Part shown: piece after piece, positions 19,941-40,015 of the stretch
Position numbering within the stretch: the stretch's first letter is position 1
Layout: each line of letters starts with the position of its first letter
Assembly: GCA_027307195.1 (NCBI GenBank)
Contig: DAHUXL010000099.1
Coordinates: 1-64,000 of the forward strand
Reading direction: 5' to 3'
DNA from: Rhodanobacter sp.
GTDB taxonomy: Bacteria; Pseudomonadota; Gammaproteobacteria; Xanthomonadales; Rhodanobacteraceae
Length of the DNA stretch: 64,000 nt
Made by a program: the position numbers and the translations under genes
The notes under the pieces: generated by a model
The model's input: only the letters and a program-made list of their open reading frames with translations
The model's database searches: none
What the model was told of the DNA's origin: nothing

Positions 19941-21926
19941 TCAGGCGGCCTTGCTGCGACCCAGACGCACCACGCCACCCACGTCGACGATCAGTGCGAC
20001 CGAGCCATCGCTGAGAATGGTGGCGCCGGAGATGCCTTGCACTCGCCGGTAATGCGCTTCCAGCGATTTGACGACCGCCTGTTGCTGGCCGAGCAGGTCG
20101 TCGACCAGCAGGCCCATGCGCCGGCCGCCCTCCTCGACCACCACCACGATGCCGCTCTCGATGTCGGTGATCGCGTCGACGCAGCCGAAGGCGTGATGCA
20201 GCCGCATGATCGGCAGGTATTCATCGCGAAAATGAAACACCTCGCCACCACCGGCGATCTTGCGGACGGCCTCGGCGCGCAGACGCAGTGACTCGACGAT
20301 CGACGTCAACGGCACGATGTAGCGCTCGCTGCCGACCGCCGTGACCAGGCCATCGATGATCGCCAGGGTCAGCGGCAACGTAATCGTGAAGATGCTCCCT
20401 TTGCCGCTCACGCTGCGCACGCCGACGCCGCCGCCGAGATCACGCACGTTGCGCCGGACAACGTCCATGCCGACGCCGCGCCCGGAGAGATCGGTGGCCT
20501 TGGCCGCGGTGGAGAAGCCCGGCTGGAAGATCAATTCGGCCACCTCGGCGTCACTGAGTTCCTGACCGACGCTGATCAGGCCGCGCTGCTGTGCCTTGGC
20601 CACGATCGCGGCATGGTTGAGGCCTGCGCCATCGTCGCTGATCTGCACCACGATGTTGCCACCCTCGTGATATGCGTTGAGCTTGAGCGTGCCGGTCTCG
20701 GATTTGCCGGCGGCCTTCCGCTGCGCCGGCGATTCCAGTCCATGGTCGATCGCATTGCGTACCAGATGCACCAGCGGATCGCCGATCTTTTCCAGGACCG
20801 TCTTGTCCAGCTCGGTGCCTTCGCCGTGCAATTCCAGCTTGACGCGCTTGTCGAGCTTGCGCTCCAGGTCGTGCACCAGGCGCGGAAAGCGATTGAATAC
20901 CGAACCGATCGGCAACATGCGGATGCGCATGACGCTTTCCTGCAACTCACGCGTGGTGCGCTCAAGGTGCGCCAGACCGTCGCGCAACCGTTCCAACTGG
21001 GATATCTCGAATTTCTCGCCGATCTCGCTGAGCATCGACTGGGTGATTACCAGCTCGCCCATCATGTTGATCAGCGCATCGACCTTGTCGATGCCCACGC
21101 GGATCGAACTGGTCTCGCTGGAGGCGATCGCCTGCTGGGCTTGCGGCGCGACGGGAGCGGCTGGCTTTGGCTCATTCGCCACGGCAGCAACGGCGGCACT
21201 GGCCGCTGGCGCTTCGGCCAGTGGCTTGATCGCCAGCTCGCAATCGCCGTCGAGCCAGTCGAACACCGCATCGATATCGGCTCGCGTGGTGGCCCCGTGC
21301 AGGCGCAGATCCCAGCCCAGATAGCACTGCGTCGGATCCAGTGCGGACAGCTGCGACGGCGCGCCGTCGACGATGAACGCGCGCACCACCTCCAGCCGCC
21401 CCAGTTGCTGCAGTTCGCGAAACACGCGCAGCGGATCGTTGCCGGTCTGCAGCAGGTGCGGCAACGCAACGAAACCGATGTCCCAGCCGCTGACGGCTGC
21501 CGCCTTCGGCGCGACGACCACGGCTACCGCAGCCTCACCGCTGACCAGACGCACCAGTTCGGCGCGCAGCGCCTCACTCTCGGCATCGGCTACCGGTTGC
21601 CCCCTGCCGGAACGATCAAGCATGGCGCGCAGAGCATCGACCGAGCGCAGCAGCAGCTCGACCAGTTCGGCATCCACGGCACGCCGTTCACTGCGCACTT
21701 CTTCCAGCAGCGACTCGGCCACATGGGTGAATGCAGCTACGTCGGTAAAGCCGAAAGTCGCCGCACCACCCTTGATGGAGTGCGCGGCACGGAAAATCGT
21801 ATGCACCAGCTCGCTATCGGTCGAGCCCGCGCCGAGCGCAAGCAGAGCTGCCTCCATCGCATCGAGGCCTTCCAGACTTTCCTCGAAGAAGGTCTTGTGG
21901 AATTGAGTCAGATCGACCGCGCTCAT
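19941..21926 (-). CDS. cheA: Chemotaxis histidine kinase CheA (che operon 1)
   Basis: 661 residues. HPt domain with phosphorylated His49 (FRAAHSIKGGAATFGF), a P2-like middle region (about 150-245), the P3 dimerisation helices (MMGELVITQSMLSEIGEKF), and a P4 kinase with the N box HLVRNAIDHGLESP and the ATP motifs ISDDGAGLN and GRGVGMDVVRRNV. The P5 CheW-like end follows. It autophosphorylates under receptor control and passes phosphate to CheY and CheB. It starts 9 bases after the cheY stop. This copy differs clearly from the second CheA at 27110-28984 and belongs to the CheR/CheD/CheB set. Confidence 0.96.
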   Translation of the reverse strand: MSAVDLTQFHKTFFEESLEGLDAMEAALLALGAGSTDSELVHTIFRAAHSIKGGAATFGFTDVAAFTHVAESLLEEVRSERRAVDAELVELLLRSVDALRAMLDRSGRGQPVADAESEALRAELVRLVSGEAAVAVVVAPKAAAVSGWDIGFVALPHLLQTGNDPLRVFRELQQLGRLEVVRAFIVDGAPSQLSALDPTQCYLGWDLRLHGATTRADIDAVFDWLDGDCELAIKPLAEAPAASAAVAAVANEPKPAAPVAPQAQQAIASSETSSIRVGIDKVDALINMMGELVITQSMLSEIGEKFEISQLERLRDGLAHLERTTRELQESVMRIRMLPIGSVFNRFPRLVHDLERKLDKRVKLELHGEGTELDKTVLEKIGDPLVHLVRNAIDHGLESPAQRKAAGKSETGTLKLNAYHEGGNIVVQISDDGAGLNHAAIVAKAQQRGLISVGQELSDAEVAELIFQPGFSTAAKATDLSGRGVGMDVVRRNVRDLGGGVGVRSVSGKGSIFTITLPLTLAIIDGLVTAVGSERYIVPLTSIVESLRLRAEAVRKIAGGGEVFHFRDEYLPIMRLHHAFGCVDAITDIESGIVVVVEEGGRRMGLLVDDLLGQQQAVVKSLEAHYRRVQGISGATILSDGSVALIVDVGGVVRLGRSKAA

Positions 21927-21935
21927 GCCTGTCCC

Positions 21936-22298
21936 TCAACCCAGCACGCGCTTGACCGTAGCCAGCAACTGCTCCGGGTCGAACGGCTTGACCAGCCAGC
22001 CGGTGGCGCCAGCCGCCTTGCCTTCCATTTTCCGCTCGGTATGCGATTCGGTGGTCAACATCAGGATCGGCACGCCCTTGTAGGCATCCAGCGCGCGCAG
22101 TTCGCGCACCATCGCAATGCCATCCATCACCGGCATGTTGACATCGGCCAGCACCAGGTCGTGGCGCGAGGCGCGTGCCGCGTCCAGCGCCAGCTGGCCG
22201 TTCTCGGCCTCGGTCACTTCGTGCCCGGCACCCCGCAGGGTGAATGCCACCATGCCGCGCATCGAGGCCGAATCGTCTACTGCAAGAATCTTTGCCAT
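21936..22298 (-). CDS. cheY: Chemotaxis response regulator CheY (che operon 1)
   Basis: 120 residues, a single receiver domain. Acidic pair VDDS (8-10), phospho-acceptor Asp52 in LADVNMPVMDG, switch Thr in LTTES (82-86) and Lys104 in VKPFDP are all present. It is phosphorylated by the adjacent CheA. Whether it binds FliM or acts as a phosphate sink cannot be told; the second CheY at 29636-30031 is more like the motor-binding type and is next to cheZ. Confidence 0.95.
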   Translation of the reverse strand: MAKILAVDDSASMRGMVAFTLRGAGHEVTEAENGQLALDAARASRHDLVLADVNMPVMDGIAMVRELRALDAYKGVPILMLTTESHTERKMEGKAAGATGWLVKPFDPEQLLATVKRVLG

Positions 22299-24406: not shown

Positions 24407-24766
24407 TCAGTGCGTGACCGGATGCAGCTGCCGGATCAGTCGCGCCTCGTCGCGCGTCAGCCCGCAGCGCGCGACCATCTGTTCAATGTCGGCGCCCTCG
24501 CGCGCCAGCTGCTGGGCCAGCTCATACGAGGTCGGCTTGACCGGTGCAGGCTGCTGCTCGATCCGGGCGATGCGCTGCTCCATGCGGCCCAATGCCGTCA
24601 CCAGCATGGCGGTCGGCACATCGGTCTGGACGGACAGGGAGACGCTGCCATCGAGGCGGGCAACGTCCTGCTTCAGCTGACGTGACTGACGCCATAGCTG
24701 CAACATCAACGTGGACTGCAGCAGGGCCAACAGCAGCAATACGCCGACGGCGATCTCAAGTGCCAT
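24407..24766 (-). CDS. DUF2802 protein at the end of the flagellar/chemotaxis cluster
   Basis: 119 residues. One N-terminal membrane helix (ALEIAVGVLLLLALLQSTLM) leads to a coiled coil (about 25-80), then the DUF2802 domain YELAQQLAREGADIEQMV and CGLTRDEARLIRQLH. The last gene of the fliA-cheYZA-motCD-cheW operon, where this family is regularly found; its N-terminus overlaps the cheW end by 11 bases. Function unknown, presumed in flagellar/chemotaxis complex assembly. ATG 24766 puts the helix at the start. Confidence 0.8.
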   Translation of the reverse strand: MALEIAVGVLLLLALLQSTLMLQLWRQSRQLKQDVARLDGSVSLSVQTDVPTAMLVTALGRMEQRIARIEQQPAPVKPTSYELAQQLAREGADIEQMVARCGLTRDEARLIRQLHPVTH

Positions 24767-25268
24767 CGCCGCTCTCCCGCTGCAACCGGCACAGTCGGCG
24801 CACATCGAGCAGCGCGACGAAACCGCCTTGCCAGGCCAGCACGCCGCTCACCGGATCGTCGGTGCGGCTGGCGCGCCCGGGCGGTGGCGGAGCGATCTCG
24901 TGACCCTCGGTATGCAGCAGCTCGCCGATGTCGTCCACCCGCAGGCCGACCAGATGGTTGCCGTGCGACAGCATCACCACGCGGACCCGCTCCGGATCGG
25001 CCACCGGCAACAGCGGCAGACCCAGTCGCAAGTGACCGTCCAGCACCGGCACGATGCGCCCGCGCAGAAGACGGATGCCGAGCAGATCCGCGGCCGCGCC
25101 CGGCACCGGCGTGAGTTCGCCGATGCGGATGACTTCACTGACCTCGTTCAGCGGTGCCGCATACAGCTGTGCGCCGATCAGGAATGACAGCCAGTGCCGT
25201 TCCTGAGACTCGGCTACAGCAGCGACAGCACTCAATTCACTCACTCCCTTTTCGTTCGGCATCGTCAT
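24756..25268 (-). CDS. cheW: CheW-domain coupling protein (che/mot cluster 2)
   Basis: 170 residues. One CheW domain: HWLSFLIGAQLYAAPLNEV, VIRIGELTPVPGAAADLLGI, LRGRIVPVLDGHLRLGL and VSGVLAWQGGFVALLDV. It should connect the cluster-2 CheA to receptors. It is linked by an ATGA overlap to motD. Compared with the usual Pseudomonas arrangement, the ParA-like (ParC) ATPase and the second CheW-like gene that normally lie between motD and this gene are absent. The N-terminus (SELSAVAAVAES) is unconserved. Confidence 0.9.
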   Translation of the reverse strand: MTMPNEKGVSELSAVAAVAESQERHWLSFLIGAQLYAAPLNEVSEVIRIGELTPVPGAAADLLGIRLLRGRIVPVLDGHLRLGLPLLPVADPERVRVVMLSHGNHLVGLRVDDIGELLHTEGHEIAPPPPGRASRTDDPVSGVLAWQGGFVALLDVRRLCRLQRESGDGT

Positions 25269-26368
25269 CGTATCCGCGAGGCCGGCGCGCTGCGTCGGGC
25301 CATGCTGCTTTCGTCCACGCTCGGCGTACCGGACCCAGCCGCGGTGGCCGACTCCACGGTGGGTGCCGGGACCGACGGCGCGACCGCCGTAATCACCGGA
25401 ATGCGCGGAAGACCTGCCGGCGCCTCCGCACTGGCGGCATGCGACGTGCCCGTGGCGTAGACACGCGCCGTCGGCATCTGCGTCGGAGCCTTGGCGGGGT
25501 CGCTGACGATTTCCGCGGTCTCATCGACGTGGTCGGCATCCGTATAGAACCGGCTCGGTGCGTTGCGATCGCTCAGCACCACCACCAGCACCCGCCGATT
25601 GCGGTTGCGGCCTTCCACGCTGGCGTTGTCGGCGACCGGGCGCATTTCGCCCCAACCGATGATGCCGAGACGATCGGCATTCACCCCGTGCTCGGAAAAA
25701 AGTCGCGCCACGGACGCCGCGCGCGCCGCCGACAGCTCCCAGTTGGACGGGTAGATCAAGGTGTTGATCGGCACATCGTCGGTATAGCCCTCCACCCGCA
25801 GCGGGTTCGCGAACGGTGCGAGGATCGACGCGAGATTGCGCAGCACCACGTTGGCCGGTGCCGCCAGTTGGGCCACGCCACTGGGAAACAGGATGTCGGT
25901 ACGGATCTCGATTTCCAGCCAGTCCGTGGTGCGCCGCACGACTACCTGCTGCTTGTCGATCAACGGCTGCAAGGCCTTGCGTACCTGGCTTTCGATGTTT
26001 TTCAGATTCTCCTGCTGGGTCGACCGGTGGCCTGCCTCGCGCCCGTCGCCCCCACGCATCGGCACCGGATGCGGCGGGATCGGCACGGCGATCGGCACGA
26101 TCGACGAACCGGGCTGACCGGCCGGCGCGGCAATCGCCGGGGTAATGTTGTGCGGCCGCACCTTGGTCGGCGGCATTGGCGCAATCACGTGGCTGGAGCC
26201 GTTGAACGCCTCGACGATCGATTCGGACATCACCCGGAACTTGCCTTCGTTGACCACCGATACGGCGTACATCACCACGAAGAACGCCAGCAGCAGCGTC
26301 ATCAGATCGGCATACGGAATCGCCCATGCCTCGTGGTTGACGTGTTCCTCGTGGTGCTTTCTCCTCAT
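25265..26368 (-). CDS. motD: Flagellar motor stator protein MotD (MotB-like, OmpA domain)
   Basis: 367 residues. A single helix carries the proton-binding aspartate (IPYADLMTLLLAFFVVMYAV). A proline-rich linker (about 60-105) follows, then an OmpA-like peptidoglycan-binding domain (about 140-270: VEGYTDDVPINTL, NWELSAARAASVARLF, GWGEMRPVADNASVEGRNRNRR). The C-terminal about 90 residues are Ala/Pro/Thr-rich, longer than usual. It anchors the stator around the polar flagellum together with MotC. ATGA overlaps join it to motC and cheW. Confidence 0.93.
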   Translation of the reverse strand: MRRKHHEEHVNHEAWAIPYADLMTLLLAFFVVMYAVSVVNEGKFRVMSESIVEAFNGSSHVIAPMPPTKVRPHNITPAIAAPAGQPGSSIVPIAVPIPPHPVPMRGGDGREAGHRSTQQENLKNIESQVRKALQPLIDKQQVVVRRTTDWLEIEIRTDILFPSGVAQLAAPANVVLRNLASILAPFANPLRVEGYTDDVPINTLIYPSNWELSAARAASVARLFSEHGVNADRLGIIGWGEMRPVADNASVEGRNRNRRVLVVVLSDRNAPSRFYTDADHVDETAEIVSDPAKAPTQMPTARVYATGTSHAASAEAPAGLPRIPVITAVAPSVPAPTVESATAAGSGTPSVDESSMARRSAPASRIR

Positions 26369-27105
26369 GGCAGGTAACCCTGCAACCGCGCCTCGATCTG
26401 CCGCGGGTTGTCGCCCTGGGCAATCGACACCAGTCCTTCGATCAGGATTTCGCGCATCTGCGACTGCTTGCTGATCAGCCCCTTCAGGCGCGCCGCCATC
26501 GGCAACATGAACATGTTGGCCAGCGCCACACCGTAGATGGTCGCCACGAAGGCCGCCGCGATGCCATGACCGAGCTTGCTCGGATCGGCCAGGTTCTGCA
26601 TCACCGCCATCAGCCCCATCACCGCGCCGATGATGCCCAGCGTGGGGGAATAGATGCCGGCGTTCTCGTACACCTTGGCACCGGCCAGGTCGATCGCCTC
26701 GCGGGTGTCGAGATCGACTTCCAGCACACTGCGGATCGCATCTGGCTCGCTGCCGTCGACCAGCAGTTGCAGCCCCTTGCTGATGAACGCATCGGACTCG
26801 GCCTCGATGTGCGGCTCCAGTCCGAGCAGGCCCTGGCGTCGCGAGATTTCGCTCCAGCCCACGATACGGCTGATCAGGTCGGCGGGCTGGTGCCGGGGTG
26901 GCTTGTAGATCATCCCCAGCATCTTCAGCGCATGCTTGAGCACCTTGCCCTGGTTCTGCACCAGCAGGGCGGCAATCGTGCCGAAAAAGACGATCACGAA
27001 CGCCGCCGGATTCCACAACGCGCCCACCGTGGAACCCTTGAGCACGGTGCCCGCGATGATGACCACGAAGGCCAGAATCGTACCGATGATGCTTACCGGA
27101 TCCAT
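26365..27105 (-). CDS. motC: Flagellar motor stator protein MotC (MotA-like)
   Basis: 246 residues with four membrane helices: SIIGTILAFVVIIAGTVL, ALWNPAAFVIVFFGTIAALL, and the pair around IYSPTLGIIGAVMGLMAVM and AAAFVATIYGVALANMFMLP. The conserved proline of the third helix and the acidic/basic cytoplasmic loop (residues 75-150) that contacts FliG are present. With MotD it forms the ion channel that drives rotation. Only one stator pair is in the window. Confidence 0.94.
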   Translation of the reverse strand: MDPVSIIGTILAFVVIIAGTVLKGSTVGALWNPAAFVIVFFGTIAALLVQNQGKVLKHALKMLGMIYKPPRHQPADLISRIVGWSEISRRQGLLGLEPHIEAESDAFISKGLQLLVDGSEPDAIRSVLEVDLDTREAIDLAGAKVYENAGIYSPTLGIIGAVMGLMAVMQNLADPSKLGHGIAAAFVATIYGVALANMFMLPMAARLKGLISKQSQMREILIEGLVSIAQGDNPRQIEARLQGYLP

Positions 27106-27109
27106 ACGT

Positions 27110-28984
27110 TCAGCCGATGACCTGCAGGGAAGGGAGAAGTTGACCCGCGGCATCGGCCAGCCCGGCCAGATCCAGCACCAGCGCCAGTCGGCCATCGCCG
27201 GTCACGGTGGCGCCGGCGATGCCGGCGGCGCCCTCGAACAGCGGGCCGAGCGGCTTGACGATGACGTCCTCGCGACCGAGCACGGCATGCACCAGGCAGC
27301 CCAGCCGCAGATGGCCGATATGCAGCACCACCACGTGCCGGCCAGCTGCCGTCGCCGCACCCGCCCAGCTGGCCAGATTGGCCAACGGCAGTGCACGGCC
27401 GCGATGGCTGGCGACCAGCCGGCCATCGAGCAGGCGATCCTGGCCGTCGACGAGTTCGAAGACCTCCTCGACGTTGCTCAACGGCAGCGCGAACAAGCGC
27501 GTCCCGACGCGCACCATCAGCACGCGCAGAATCGCCAGCGTCAACGGCACGGTCAGTTCCAGCACACTGCCGTGACCGAGCTTGGAGCGCACCTGCAAAA
27601 TGCCGCCGAGTTCCGCCACGCGGGTCTTCACCACATCCATGCCGACGCCGCGGCCGGAGATGTCGGAGATCGCCGCGGCGGTGCTGAAGCCGGGGCGGAA
27701 AATCAGCTCGTAGCACTCGGTTTCGGTCAGATGTGCAGCCTGCGCCGAGTCGATCACACCCTTCTCCAGCGCCTTGCGGCGCAGGAGCTCCGGATCCATG
27801 CCGCGACCGTCGTCACTCACCGAGATCACGATGCGCTCGCCACGCTGGCTGGCCGACAGGCAGACCCGGCCCTTGCGCGGCTTGTCGCTGCGTTCGCGCT
27901 CATCCGGCATTTCCACGCCATGATCGAGCGCGTTGCGCAATAGATGGATCAGCGGATCGGCCAGCGCCTCGACCAGGCTGCGATCGAGATCGGTCCCTTC
28001 GCCTTCCAGCACCAGCTCCACGTCCTTGCCGAGCTGACGGGCCAGGTCGCGCACGATCCGCGGAAACCGCTGGAACAGTCGCCCGACCGGCTGCATGCGC
28101 ATGCCCAGCGCCGCAGCCTGCAGTTCGTCGGCAACCCGATCCAGCTCGGCGGCGGCCGTGGTCAGCGCCTCGTCTCCGCCATGCGCGGCCAGACTGAGCA
28201 GGCGGTTGCGCACCAGCACCAGCTCACCGGCACGGTTGACCAGCACGTCGAGCTTCGAAGTATCCACTCGCACGGTGGTCTCGGCCGGTGCGGGCGCCGC
28301 AGGGCGTGCGGGTGTCGGTGCAACGGACGCGGCGACCGGTGCCGGTGCCGGAGCGACAGCGACTGCCGCCACCGCGCCGGGCTGACCGCCCTTGCCGTGC
28401 AACGAGTCCAGCAGTGCCTCGAATTCATCATCACCGATCGCACTCGCCGTAGGCGCGGCGGCCGGCGCGGCCGCCTCGACGAGGCCTGGTGCGCCGGTCC
28501 CGTACAGATTGTCGAGCAAGGCCTCGAATTCGCTGTCGTCGATCGCCGCGCCATCGGCCATCGGCGCCAACACCGCCGATGTCGCGCTGACGGCAACCTT
28601 GGCCGTGACCGGCAACAGGCGCTGTAGCAACGCAGCGGGCGGCATTGCCAACGGCGCCTCATCGGCCAGCGCGGCCATCATCGCGGTTAGCAGGTCGAGC
28701 GCCTCGAGCAGCGCATCCATCTGCGCCGCGCCCAGCACCAGCTTGCCGTTGCGGGCCTCGTTGAGCAGATCCTCGGCGTGATGGCACAGCAGCACCATCG
28801 GCTCGACCGCCAGAAATCCGGCGCCGCCCTTGACGGTATGGAAGGCACGAAACACCGCGTTCAACAACTCGGCGTCGCCGGGCGCGGTTTCGAGCCCGAC
28901 CAGTTGCTCGCCGAGGCGCTGCACCAGCTCGCCAGCCTCGACCAGGAAATCCTGGCGCAGCTCGATGTCGAACTCCGCGTTCAC
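27110..28984 (-). CDS. cheA: Chemotaxis histidine kinase CheA (cluster 2, linked to cheYZ/motCD)
   Basis: 624 residues, GTG start with GAGGACC before it. HPt His49 (FRAFHTVKGGAGFL), then a long Ala/Pro linker, P3 dimerisation, a P4 kinase (HLLRNALDHGVEMPDE, VSDDGRGMDPE, GRGVGMDVVKTRVAELGG) and a P5 CheW-like domain. The linker holds two copies of DD-x-EFEALLD-x-L-x-G (about residues 147-161 and 184-198), which look like the FliM N-terminal CheY-binding peptide. A compact P2 domain is not apparent, so these peptides may do its job. This CheA most likely drives the flagellar motor through the adjacent cheY and cheZ. Confidence 0.95.
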   Translation of the reverse strand: MNAEFDIELRQDFLVEAGELVQRLGEQLVGLETAPGDAELLNAVFRAFHTVKGGAGFLAVEPMVLLCHHAEDLLNEARNGKLVLGAAQMDALLEALDLLTAMMAALADEAPLAMPPAALLQRLLPVTAKVAVSATSAVLAPMADGAAIDDSEFEALLDNLYGTGAPGLVEAAAPAAAPTASAIGDDEFEALLDSLHGKGGQPGAVAAVAVAPAPAPVAASVAPTPARPAAPAPAETTVRVDTSKLDVLVNRAGELVLVRNRLLSLAAHGGDEALTTAAAELDRVADELQAAALGMRMQPVGRLFQRFPRIVRDLARQLGKDVELVLEGEGTDLDRSLVEALADPLIHLLRNALDHGVEMPDERERSDKPRKGRVCLSASQRGERIVISVSDDGRGMDPELLRRKALEKGVIDSAQAAHLTETECYELIFRPGFSTAAAISDISGRGVGMDVVKTRVAELGGILQVRSKLGHGSVLELTVPLTLAILRVLMVRVGTRLFALPLSNVEEVFELVDGQDRLLDGRLVASHRGRALPLANLASWAGAATAAGRHVVVLHIGHLRLGCLVHAVLGREDVIVKPLGPLFEGAAGIAGATVTGDGRLALVLDLAGLADAAGQLLPSLQVIG

Positions 28985-28994
28985 GGCGAGGTCC

Positions 28995-29639
28995 TCAGAA
29001 CCCGAATTCGCTGAGCAGGCGATCGGCATCATCCTGGCTGGACACCTTGACCGCACTGGCCGGTGCCTCGCTGCCGGCCAGTGCGCCGGTCAGCCGCACC
29101 AGTTCCAGCAACGACGATTCGACGCTTTCGATGAAGTTGACCACCTTCTTGATGCGCTGGCCGGACAGGTCCTGCCACGACTGCGCCATCACCATGTCGG
29201 CCAGGCCGTCGCGGCAACTGATCGCGAAATCGCTGGCCTGATGTGCCAGCACCGCGGCGGGATCGCTCTTGCTGTCGGTGAACGCCAGCACTTCGCCGGC
29301 GTTGTGTGCCAGCAGCTCGGCGGCCGGTCGCATGCGCTCGGCGAAATCGATGCTGCGATGGGCCGCCAGCGCGCTCATTTCGAGTACGTCGTTGAGATGC
29401 TGGCGAGCGTCGGCCACGCTGTCCGGCAAACCCTCACTCGCCAGTTCGCCACCCAGCCGGCGCATCGCGCCATGCAGGTCGCGCGCCAGCTGGCCGAGCG
29501 CGCGGAACAGGCGTTGTTCGCGATCGCGCACCATCACGTCCAGCGCCTGCTCGAAGGCCGGGCCGTCGGGACTGTTCAGCAGGTCGCGCAATTCCGTCGG
29601 CAGATGTTCCTGGTTCACCAGTGGCAGGATGGCGCTCAT
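28995..29639 (-). CDS. cheZ: CheY-P phosphatase CheZ
   Basis: 214 residues, mostly helical. Catalytic segment [19 protein letters not shown] contains the Asp and Gln that direct attack on CheY-P. The C-terminal helix [14 protein letters not shown] is the CheY-docking tail. It overlaps cheY by ATGA and precedes cheA by 10 bases. This is the only phosphatase in the window, so it may also serve the other CheY. Confidence 0.94.
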
Positions 29640-30031
29640 GCGCTGGCTCCCGCGGCGGCGATCCGTTCGAAGATCTTGCCCAGTTTCTCCTTCAGGGTGA
29701 TCGCGGTGAACGGCTTGACGATATAGCCGTTCACGCCCGCCTGGGCGGCCGCGATGATCTGCTCGCGATTGTTCTCGGCAGTCACCATCAATACGGGCAG
29801 GCCTTTCAATGCCGCCTCGGCGCGAATCGCGCGCAGCAGGTCGATGCCGGTCATGTTCGGCATGTTCCAGTCGGTCACGACCAGGTCGAACGGGATACTG
29901 CGCAACATCGCGATCGCGCTCTCGCCATCCTCGGCCTCCTGGATCAGCGGATTGCTGAAGCCCAGTTCGACCAGCAGGTTGCGCACGATGCGCCGCATGG
30001 TGGAGAAGTCGTCCACCACCAGGATTTTCAT
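29636..30031 (-). CDS. cheY: Chemotaxis response regulator CheY (motor type)
   Basis: 131 residues. [15 protein letters not shown] at 6-20, phospho-acceptor Asp54 in [16 protein letters not shown] at the switch (84-88) and Lys106 in VKPFTA; these are the signatures of the E. coli-type motor-binding CheY. ATG 30031 has GGACAAG before it; an in-frame TTG four codons earlier is less likely. The 79 bases upstream to fliA show no clear promoter, so it is probably read through from fliA. Confidence 0.96.
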
Positions 30032-30110
30032 GTTCTTGTCCAAACACCTTCTCCACTTGCACCGTTTTTAGCCAGTGCGCCAAGCCTCGGGAATTCGAGT
30101 TACCGTTTCG

Positions 30111-38655: not shown

Positions 38656-39002
38656 CAGCGCAGTTTGCGCACGCGTTCGGCCGGACTGATCACGTCGGTC
38701 AGGCGAATGCCGAACTTCTCGTTGATCACCACCACCTCGCCATGCGCCACCAGGGTGCCGTTGACGAAGACATCGAGCGGTTCGCCGGCGGCACGATCCA
38801 GCTCCACTACCGAGCCCTGGTTGAGCTGCAGCAGGTTGCGGATGCTGATGCGGGTACGTCCCACCTCCATCGCCAGGGTCACCGGCACATCCAGGATCAT
38901 GTCGAGGTTGACCTCGCTACCCTCCGCAGCGGCGTCCTGCAGGGAATCGAATTCGATGCGCTCGCCGGCATCGGCGAAAGCACCATTTGTGGACTGGTTC
39001 AT
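38655..39002 (-). CDS. fliN: Flagellar motor switch protein FliN
   Basis: 115 residues. The acidic N-terminus is followed by a SpoA domain: LDMILDVPVTLAMEVGRTRI, LLQLNQGSVVELDRAAGEPL, DVFVNGTLVAHGEVVVINEK, ending RLTDVISPAERVRKLR. It forms the lower C-ring with FliM and binds FliH. ATGA overlap with fliM. Confidence 0.97.
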   Translation of the reverse strand: MNQSTNGAFADAGERIEFDSLQDAAAEGSEVNLDMILDVPVTLAMEVGRTRISIRNLLQLNQGSVVELDRAAGEPLDVFVNGTLVAHGEVVVINEKFGIRLTDVISPAERVRKLR

Positions 39003-40015
39003 GCGGGATTCTTCTCTATGGAATGACTACTGGTCGAACGCCGTTCACGCCGACCGGCCTGGGAGTGGAAGCGCACCGCGTTGCGGCCGTTGGACTGGCC
39101 ATAGCGACCGCGGAACACCGGCACATCCTCGGCATAGACGGTGGCCAGTCCGGGCAGCTGTACAGGGATCACGTCACCGGGACGCAGATGCAGGAACTCG
39201 CCGAGACTGAGCTGGGCTTCGAGCAGCAGCGAGCTGAGTCCGACCTCGGCGTCCAGCACTTCCTCGTGCAGGACCTCGGCCCAGCGATCGTCGCGATCGA
39301 CGCGGTCGCTTTGCACACCGGCATCGAGCAGCGTGCGGATAGGCTCGACCATCGCATACGGCATGGTCAGGTGGATTTCACCGCCACCACCGTCGAGTTC
39401 GACATGAAAGCGCGATACCACCACCGTCTCGGTGGGACTGACGATATTGGCGAACTGCGGATTGATCTCCGAGTTCATGTATTCGAACTGCATCGCCAGC
39501 ACCGGCGCCCATGCCTCGGACATCGCGGTGAACAGTTCGGCCAGCATGATCTGGATCACGCGATTCTCGGTGGCGGTGAAATCGCGCCCTTCGATGCGTG
39601 CGTGATAGCGGCCGTCGCCGCCGAAGAAATTGTCGATCACGGTGAATACCAGCCGCGGCTCGAACACCACCAGCGCGGTGCCGCGCAATGGCTTGATGCG
39701 CACCAGGTTCAAGTTGGTGGGAACCGCCAGGCCGTGCACGTACTCGGCGAACTTGACCATCTTCACGCCCAGTACCGAGACCTCGCAGGTCTTGCGCAGC
39801 ACGCTGAAGATGCCGGTGCGAAAGAATCGCGCGAAACGGTCGTTGACCATTTCCAGCGTCGGCAGGCGGCCACGCACGATGCGGTCCTGCTGGGTAAAGT
39901 CGTACGAGATCACCGCGCCAACCGGCAACGGCTCGTCATTGCCGGTGGCTACCGCGCCGCCTTCGACGCCGTCCAGCAGTGCATCGATTTCGTCCTGGGA
40001 AAGCAGATCGCTCAT
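38999..40015 (-). CDS. fliM: Flagellar motor switch protein FliM
   Basis: 338 residues. The N-terminal CheY-binding peptide LLSQDEIDALLDGVEGG (residues 4-20) is followed by the CheC-like middle domain (GRLPTLEMVNDRFARFFRTG) that binds FliG. A C-terminal SpoA domain (LGEFLHLRPGDVIPVQLPG) pairs with FliN. It receives the CheY-P signal for reversing rotation. The stop overlaps the fliN start. Confidence 0.97.
   Translation of the reverse strand: MSDLLSQDEIDALLDGVEGGAVATGNDEPLPVGAVISYDFTQQDRIVRGRLPTLEMVNDRFARFFRTGIFSVLRKTCEVSVLGVKMVKFAEYVHGLAVPTNLNLVRIKPLRGTALVVFEPRLVFTVIDNFFGGDGRYHARIEGRDFTATENRVIQIMLAELFTAMSEAWAPVLAMQFEYMNSEINPQFANIVSPTETVVVSRFHVELDGGGGEIHLTMPYAMVEPIRTLLDAGVQSDRVDRDDRWAEVLHEEVLDAEVGLSSLLLEAQLSLGEFLHLRPGDVIPVQLPGLATVYAEDVPVFRGRYGQSNGRNAVRFHSQAGRRERRSTSSHSIEKNPA

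Follow-up and report, generated by a model that had tools for sequence, protein, structure and literature searches.

The F6-type CheA encoded in a 64,000-nucleotide stretch of a Rhodanobacter sp. contig (hereafter the window) carries, between its P1 and P3 domains, two copies of a short peptide with the consensus IxDxEFEALLDxLxG, which resembles the CheY-binding peptides of FliM and CheZ. Judged by sequence, the class-wide occurrence of these repeats suggests how kinases without a P2 docking domain may recruit CheY, and we consider it probable that the repeated peptides stand in for P2, each folding as a short helix that catches CheY by the face it offers to FliM. FliM-type peptides are themselves known; what appears new here is their placement in the CheA linker and their repetition, for which we do not claim priority.

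Domain organization of the kinase and its gene cluster

The window contains two CheA genes, one in an F6-type cluster and one F7-like (Table 1). The start codon of the F6-type cheA is preceded by GAGGA, which overlaps the stop codon of cheZ. Pfam matches Hpt, H-kinase_dim, HATPase_c and CheW in the encoded protein, giving the P1, P3, P4 and P5 core of F6 kinases. In the AlphaFold model, P1 is folded (pLDDT 93-98), and the linker is mostly below pLDDT 50 except at the end of P1 and at the two motifs. Neither Pfam nor AlphaFold detects a P2 or CheY-binding domain between P1 and P3, in agreement with a first-pass annotation of this DNA that had seen no typical folded P2 in the protein, and Pfam likewise detects no P2 in any of six F6 CheAs scanned (6/6). 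The gene order fliA-cheY-cheZ-cheA beside flagellar genes, with motC/motD and cheW downstream, is that of F6 clusters; at 24756-27195, cheB, parC and parP, present between the cheA and cheW genes of many relatives, have been lost from the cluster.

Table 1. Chemotaxis and flagellar features of the window, in window coordinates
Feature	Position	Strand	Remarks
Second CheA, F7-like	19941..21926	minus	Matches the E. coli CheA model over its full length
cheW	24756..25268	minus	Directly after motD
cheA, F6-type cluster	27110..28984	minus	624 codons plus stop; GTG start at 28984
P3 dimerisation domain	28106..28279	minus	At the end of the linker; Pfam H-kinase_dim E 4.7e-13
P1-P3 linker, Ala/Pro-rich, without P2	28280..28687	minus	No Pfam match; mostly pLDDT <50
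Motif copy 2, GDDEFEALLDSLHG	28394..28435	minus	In frame in CheA; Ile codon just before, 28436-28438
Motif copy 1, DDSEFEALLDNLYG	28499..28540	minus	In frame in CheA; Ile codon just before, 28541-28543
P1 / Hpt domain	28688..28963	minus	Phosphorylatable His in AFHTVKGGAGFL; Pfam Hpt E 6.9e-16, residues 8-99
CheZ C-terminal tail	28998..29039	minus	CheY-binding by family; loosely the same motif
cheY, F6-type cluster	29636..30043	minus	Candidate motif partner; nearest solved structure Vibrio cholerae CheY3
fliM	38999..40015	minus	Protein begins (M)SDLLSQDEIDALLDGVEGG; N-terminal CheY-binding peptide LSQDEIDALLDGVE starts at 40003

Two motif copies in a disordered linker

Written as peptides, the window motifs are IGDDEFEALLDSLHGK and IDDSEFEALLDNLYGT. 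Both had been noticed in the first-pass annotation as FliM-like and are confirmed in frame on the minus strand, with a start-to-start spacing of 35 residues rather than the 37 given there. A PWM built from the CheA motifs of other genomes, scored on 94,760 14-mers from all six frames of the window, places these copies first and second, at 47.7 and 47.0 against a background mean of -48 (sd 8.8). The best match in a real gene other than cheA is the N-terminus of FliM, which scores 8.6, or 6.4 sd above background. Antisense matches at + 27440 and + 29121 were rejected as shadow frames of cheA and cheZ; the last helix of P1 (QMDALLEALDLL), considered as a third copy, was also rejected, as it belongs to the Hpt fold and scores -7.8.

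For structure prediction, the continuous stretch of reading frame from cheY through cheA was taken from the window and modeled with AlphaFold as a single chain in which stops were read as residues. With an alignment of 39 contiguous cheY-cheA rows, CheY and P1 are confident and the linker is mostly below pLDDT 50, with two islands of pLDDT ~78 exactly at the motifs (residues 499-515 and 535-550) that contain predicted helices at 503-513 (copy 1) and 538-548 (copy 2). When the alignment held nothing but CheY rows, the islands were less marked, ~64 at motif 1 and 40-48 at motif 2. In the model, these islands in disorder look like conditionally folding peptides; the pTM of the whole is low (0.36), and the islands say nothing of the docking of the motifs on CheY.

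Repeats are the rule in F6 CheAs

Genomes searched in full at the level of order, class and phylum, together with named genomes, provided 153 distinct F6-like CheAs, in which copies were counted with the strict core [DE][FILVM][DE]x[LIVM][LIVM][DE]. The comparison of linkers that the first-pass annotation had called for, thus run over the order and beyond, finds the core in 153/153 F6 linkers: one copy in 7, two in 38, three in 89 and four in 19, at a median spacing of 41 residues. Three or four copies occur, for example, in Pseudomonas, Vibrio, Photobacterium, Shewanella, Alteromonas, Pseudoalteromonas and Marinobacter. In the phylum sample (loci L215-L244), all 30 F6-type CheA loci have the motif; none of 20 fetched CheAs scoring below the F6 range (<371 bits) does. 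CheAs of other classes lack it, and it was not found in the second, F7-like CheA of the window. A scan of 184 loci found no canonical copy in proteins other than these CheAs. Two to four copies are therefore the rule for F6 CheAs in most of the Gammaproteobacteria sampled. The duplication, which the first-pass annotation had taken for the striking part, is a norm of the F6 class, with one to four copies and most often three across gammaproteobacterial F6 CheAs, and the special part is the motif itself.

The logo of 445 instances from F6 CheAs reads I (90%), [TS], [DE], [DE], E (98%), F (99%), E (85%), A (53%), L (91%), L (98%), D (95%), x, L (86%), H (74%), G (86%). In copy 2 of the window's own family, all 21 sequences agree at E-F-E-A-L-L-D, at the L two residues on and at the final G. 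The copies are repeated and embedded in Ala/Pro-rich sequence, as would be expected of a functionless acidic helical repeat spread by chance or replication slippage. However, the linkers of own-family CheAs scramble around the motif while the motif columns stay invariant, and only 0.5% of shuffled linkers hold at least one copy (0.003% hold two), compared with each of the 153 natural F6 linkers. A low-complexity origin is thereby refuted at the level of sequence, and we find it hardly credible.

A peptide resembling those of FliM and CheZ

The CheA logo, I-[TS]-[DE]-[DE]-E-F-E-A-L-L-D-x-L-H-G, aligns ungapped with the consensus of the FliM N-terminus from 31 genomes (L-S-Q-D-E-I-D-A-L-L-H-G-V) and with that of the CheZ tail from 144 loci (G-Q-D-E-V-D-D-L-L-S-S-L-G-F). 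The CheA-FliM profile score is reached by 0/1000 column permutations and the CheA-CheZ score by 8/1000, which bears out both the resemblance to the FliM of the same window and the looser likeness to the CheZ tail that had been proposed from the window alone. The FliM-type pattern [ILV][ST]x[DE]E[IVF][DE]xLL is present in the motif, although the second residue of the pattern is Asp or Gly in the two copies of the window. On CheY, FliM contacts comprise the hydrophobic anchors L6, I11, L14 and L15, and D12, which pairs with CheY K119 (PMC3774744 Table 3); the respective counterparts in the CheA motif are I, F, L, L and, for D12, E. The position of FliM Q8, which bonds CheY V108, is Asp or Glu in the CheA motif, and the CheZ tail binds the CheY face used by FliM (PMC3774744).

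The CheA motif thus shares with the FliM peptide an ungapped pattern of anchors and acids and a predicted short helix, and the CheY face is likely shared as well. It differs in having Phe for Ile and Asp after LL, and in lying internally, in one to four copies, in the kinase instead of the motor. Because the Phe is almost invariant (99%) where Ile or Val might stand, the specificity may differ. With the CheZ tail, the motif has the core E-V/F-D/E-x-L-L-x-x-L in common; the tail is C-terminal and single, has Val for Phe and ends in LGF, and this likeness is weaker.

Another array or motor protein (CheZ, the SH3-like domains of CheW or P5, or CheB) might bind the motifs instead, or they might serve CheA self-association. 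SH3-like partners are present in every array, and partial matches to the Pfam SHOCT (short helical tail) model overlap the motif in numerous F6 CheAs, two of them above the cut-off. However, the matches in F6 relatives cover only the second half of the model and mostly fall below the cut-off, the window CheA itself has no match to the model (PF09851, 28 positions, judged at the gathering score), and a SHOCT match would leave the FliM/CheZ pattern unexplained, so that we rate such partners as very unlikely.

CheY as the candidate partner

The E. coli CheY-FliM complex is available as PDB 1F4V. In E. coli numbering, the F6 CheY of the window keeps the main FliM contacts I95, A99, Y106, V108, F111, K119 and K122 and differs at two contact positions, A90 -> N and K91 -> N. 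The same seven contacts are invariant in 43 other F6 CheYs except for V108 (40/43) and K122 (42/43). A Foldseek search with the cheY-to-cheA model returned matches to CheY only, and V. cholerae CheY3, to which the F6 CheY of the window is closest, binds FliM (PMC3774744). In the second (F7) cluster, CheY (21936-22298, minus) has, by eye, Trp at the Tyr106 position and no Lys at 119; with the FliM contacts apparently missing there, FliM binding is likely for the F6 CheY alone.

The motif and the ParP-binding LID

In Vibrio CheA, the ParP-binding LID lies between the P1/P2 region and P3 and is reported only in species with both ParC and ParP (PMC7534058, PMC5706961). This is the same stretch, in the same CheA class, as the motif linker, and since the only evident repeats in the LID region of the Vibrio CheAs inspected are three EFExLLDxLHG copies, the LID probably overlaps the motif copies. 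The motifs might accordingly be a LID that holds CheA in polar arrays via the AIF domain of ParP, rather than a site for CheY, and ParC and ParP are encoded downstream in most F6 clusters. This alternative, named in the first-pass annotation, has to be reckoned with in other species but is unlikely to operate here. The LID is defined by ParP binding, and ParP was not found in the window genome: parC-parP is missing between motD and cheW, where most other F6 clusters have it; none of the eight CheW-domain loci of this genome (assembly 90% complete) is a ParP, although AIF domains of ParP are picked up by the CheW model; and neither ParP nor ParC was found alongside the window CheA. Sixteen own-family genomes, that of the window among them, keep two to three motif copies with ParP undetected in a single-sequence search, which a diverged ParP could escape, as a ParP-like protein in another family (G165) did. 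With ParP not found here and undetected in 15 relatives that keep two to three copies, ParP is not the sole reason for the motif; a ParP-binding role would also leave the match to FliM and CheZ unexplained.

The repeats might also serve both partners, binding CheY generally and, in ParP lineages, ParP through at least one copy, for example the last. The presence of multiple near-identical copies, the location of the LID in the same stretch (PMC7534058) and the slightly lower copy number in the window's ParP-free genus (2 vs 3) are consistent with such dual use. Eight genomes of one own-family genus combine ParP-like genes with three motif copies. However, the copies hardly differ and none stands out as specific to ParP, and three copies also occur in ParP-free genera of the same family, which makes dual use quite unlikely in our estimate.

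Several loci show variation in the ParP region itself. Genus g230, of the window's own family, keeps a ParP-like gene. In another family of the order, the gene after parC (L046:9606-10493, +) combines a ParP-like N-terminus (ALDDYLDALL) with an ordinary CheW domain, which scores 107 bits vs 44-50 in four other ParPs. At L054 and L055, ParC lies beside cheA, and no ParP was found between ParC and cheW.

A proposed docking role for the motif string

The P2/CheY-binding domain known from Pfam is presumed to dock CheY near P1, and the motif region of F6 CheAs holds the same position between P1 and P3. Whereas P2 is a folded domain, the F6 linker presents short peptides in disorder, with no P2 detectable. 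CheY binding, the face used, its affinity and its effect on phosphotransfer are what we infer from sequence and model. The two CheA peptides would become helical on the alpha4-beta5-alpha5 face that CheY presents to FliM and CheZ, and the motif string in the disordered linker would replace the folded P2 of other kinases, tethering CheY near P1 and P4, where its local concentration for phosphotransfer would be higher. The copies could then act as a multivalent, low-affinity landing strip, from which phosphorylated CheY would exchange onto FliM or CheZ as competitors for the same face. FliM prefers phosphorylated CheY, and a dock for the substrate would be expected to favor CheY that is not yet phosphorylated, which is in tension with CheY docking; this phospho-preference may be retuned by the Phe that almost always takes the place of Ile/Val and by the Asp that follows LL. 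For the F6 class as a whole, including Pseudomonas, Vibrio and Shewanella, we think it reasonably likely that multivalent FliM/CheZ-type peptides dock CheY, that kinase, phosphatase and motor use one peptide code, and that P2 has been replaced and is not simply missing.

If the repeats dock CheY, the puzzle of fast phosphotransfer in the P2-less F6 class would largely be solved. Kinase, phosphatase and motor would be rivals for CheY, all using one type of peptide, copy number could tune the retention of CheY at the array, and studies that name the F6 linker a P2 or YB domain (e.g., in P. putida) would need reinterpretation. A 2023 survey reports that more than half of CheAs have no P2, regards the region as unstructured and calls P2 dispensable, and its passages on the P2 region make no mention of the motif (PMC10782961). 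Our search of the accessible literature found no paper describing the F6 CheA repeats.

Divergent linkers

A P2-less F6-like CheA at L247 (G673:C1:605500-609800) is without the EFEALLD motif, so the motif is not strictly required; its linker holds GDDINWDALHAVLTG, possibly a diverged substitute. In genus g230 (L032-L039), the first linker copy is degenerate (IEDEFEAMLDAARS) and resembles the extra N-terminal copies of many lineages, such as TDEEFEAILDASQS. A gammaproteobacterial CheA at L102:4368-6881 (+) carries a globin domain in its pre-P3 linker (Pfam Globin E 4.5e-19), which suggests that this kinase might sense oxygen or NO directly.
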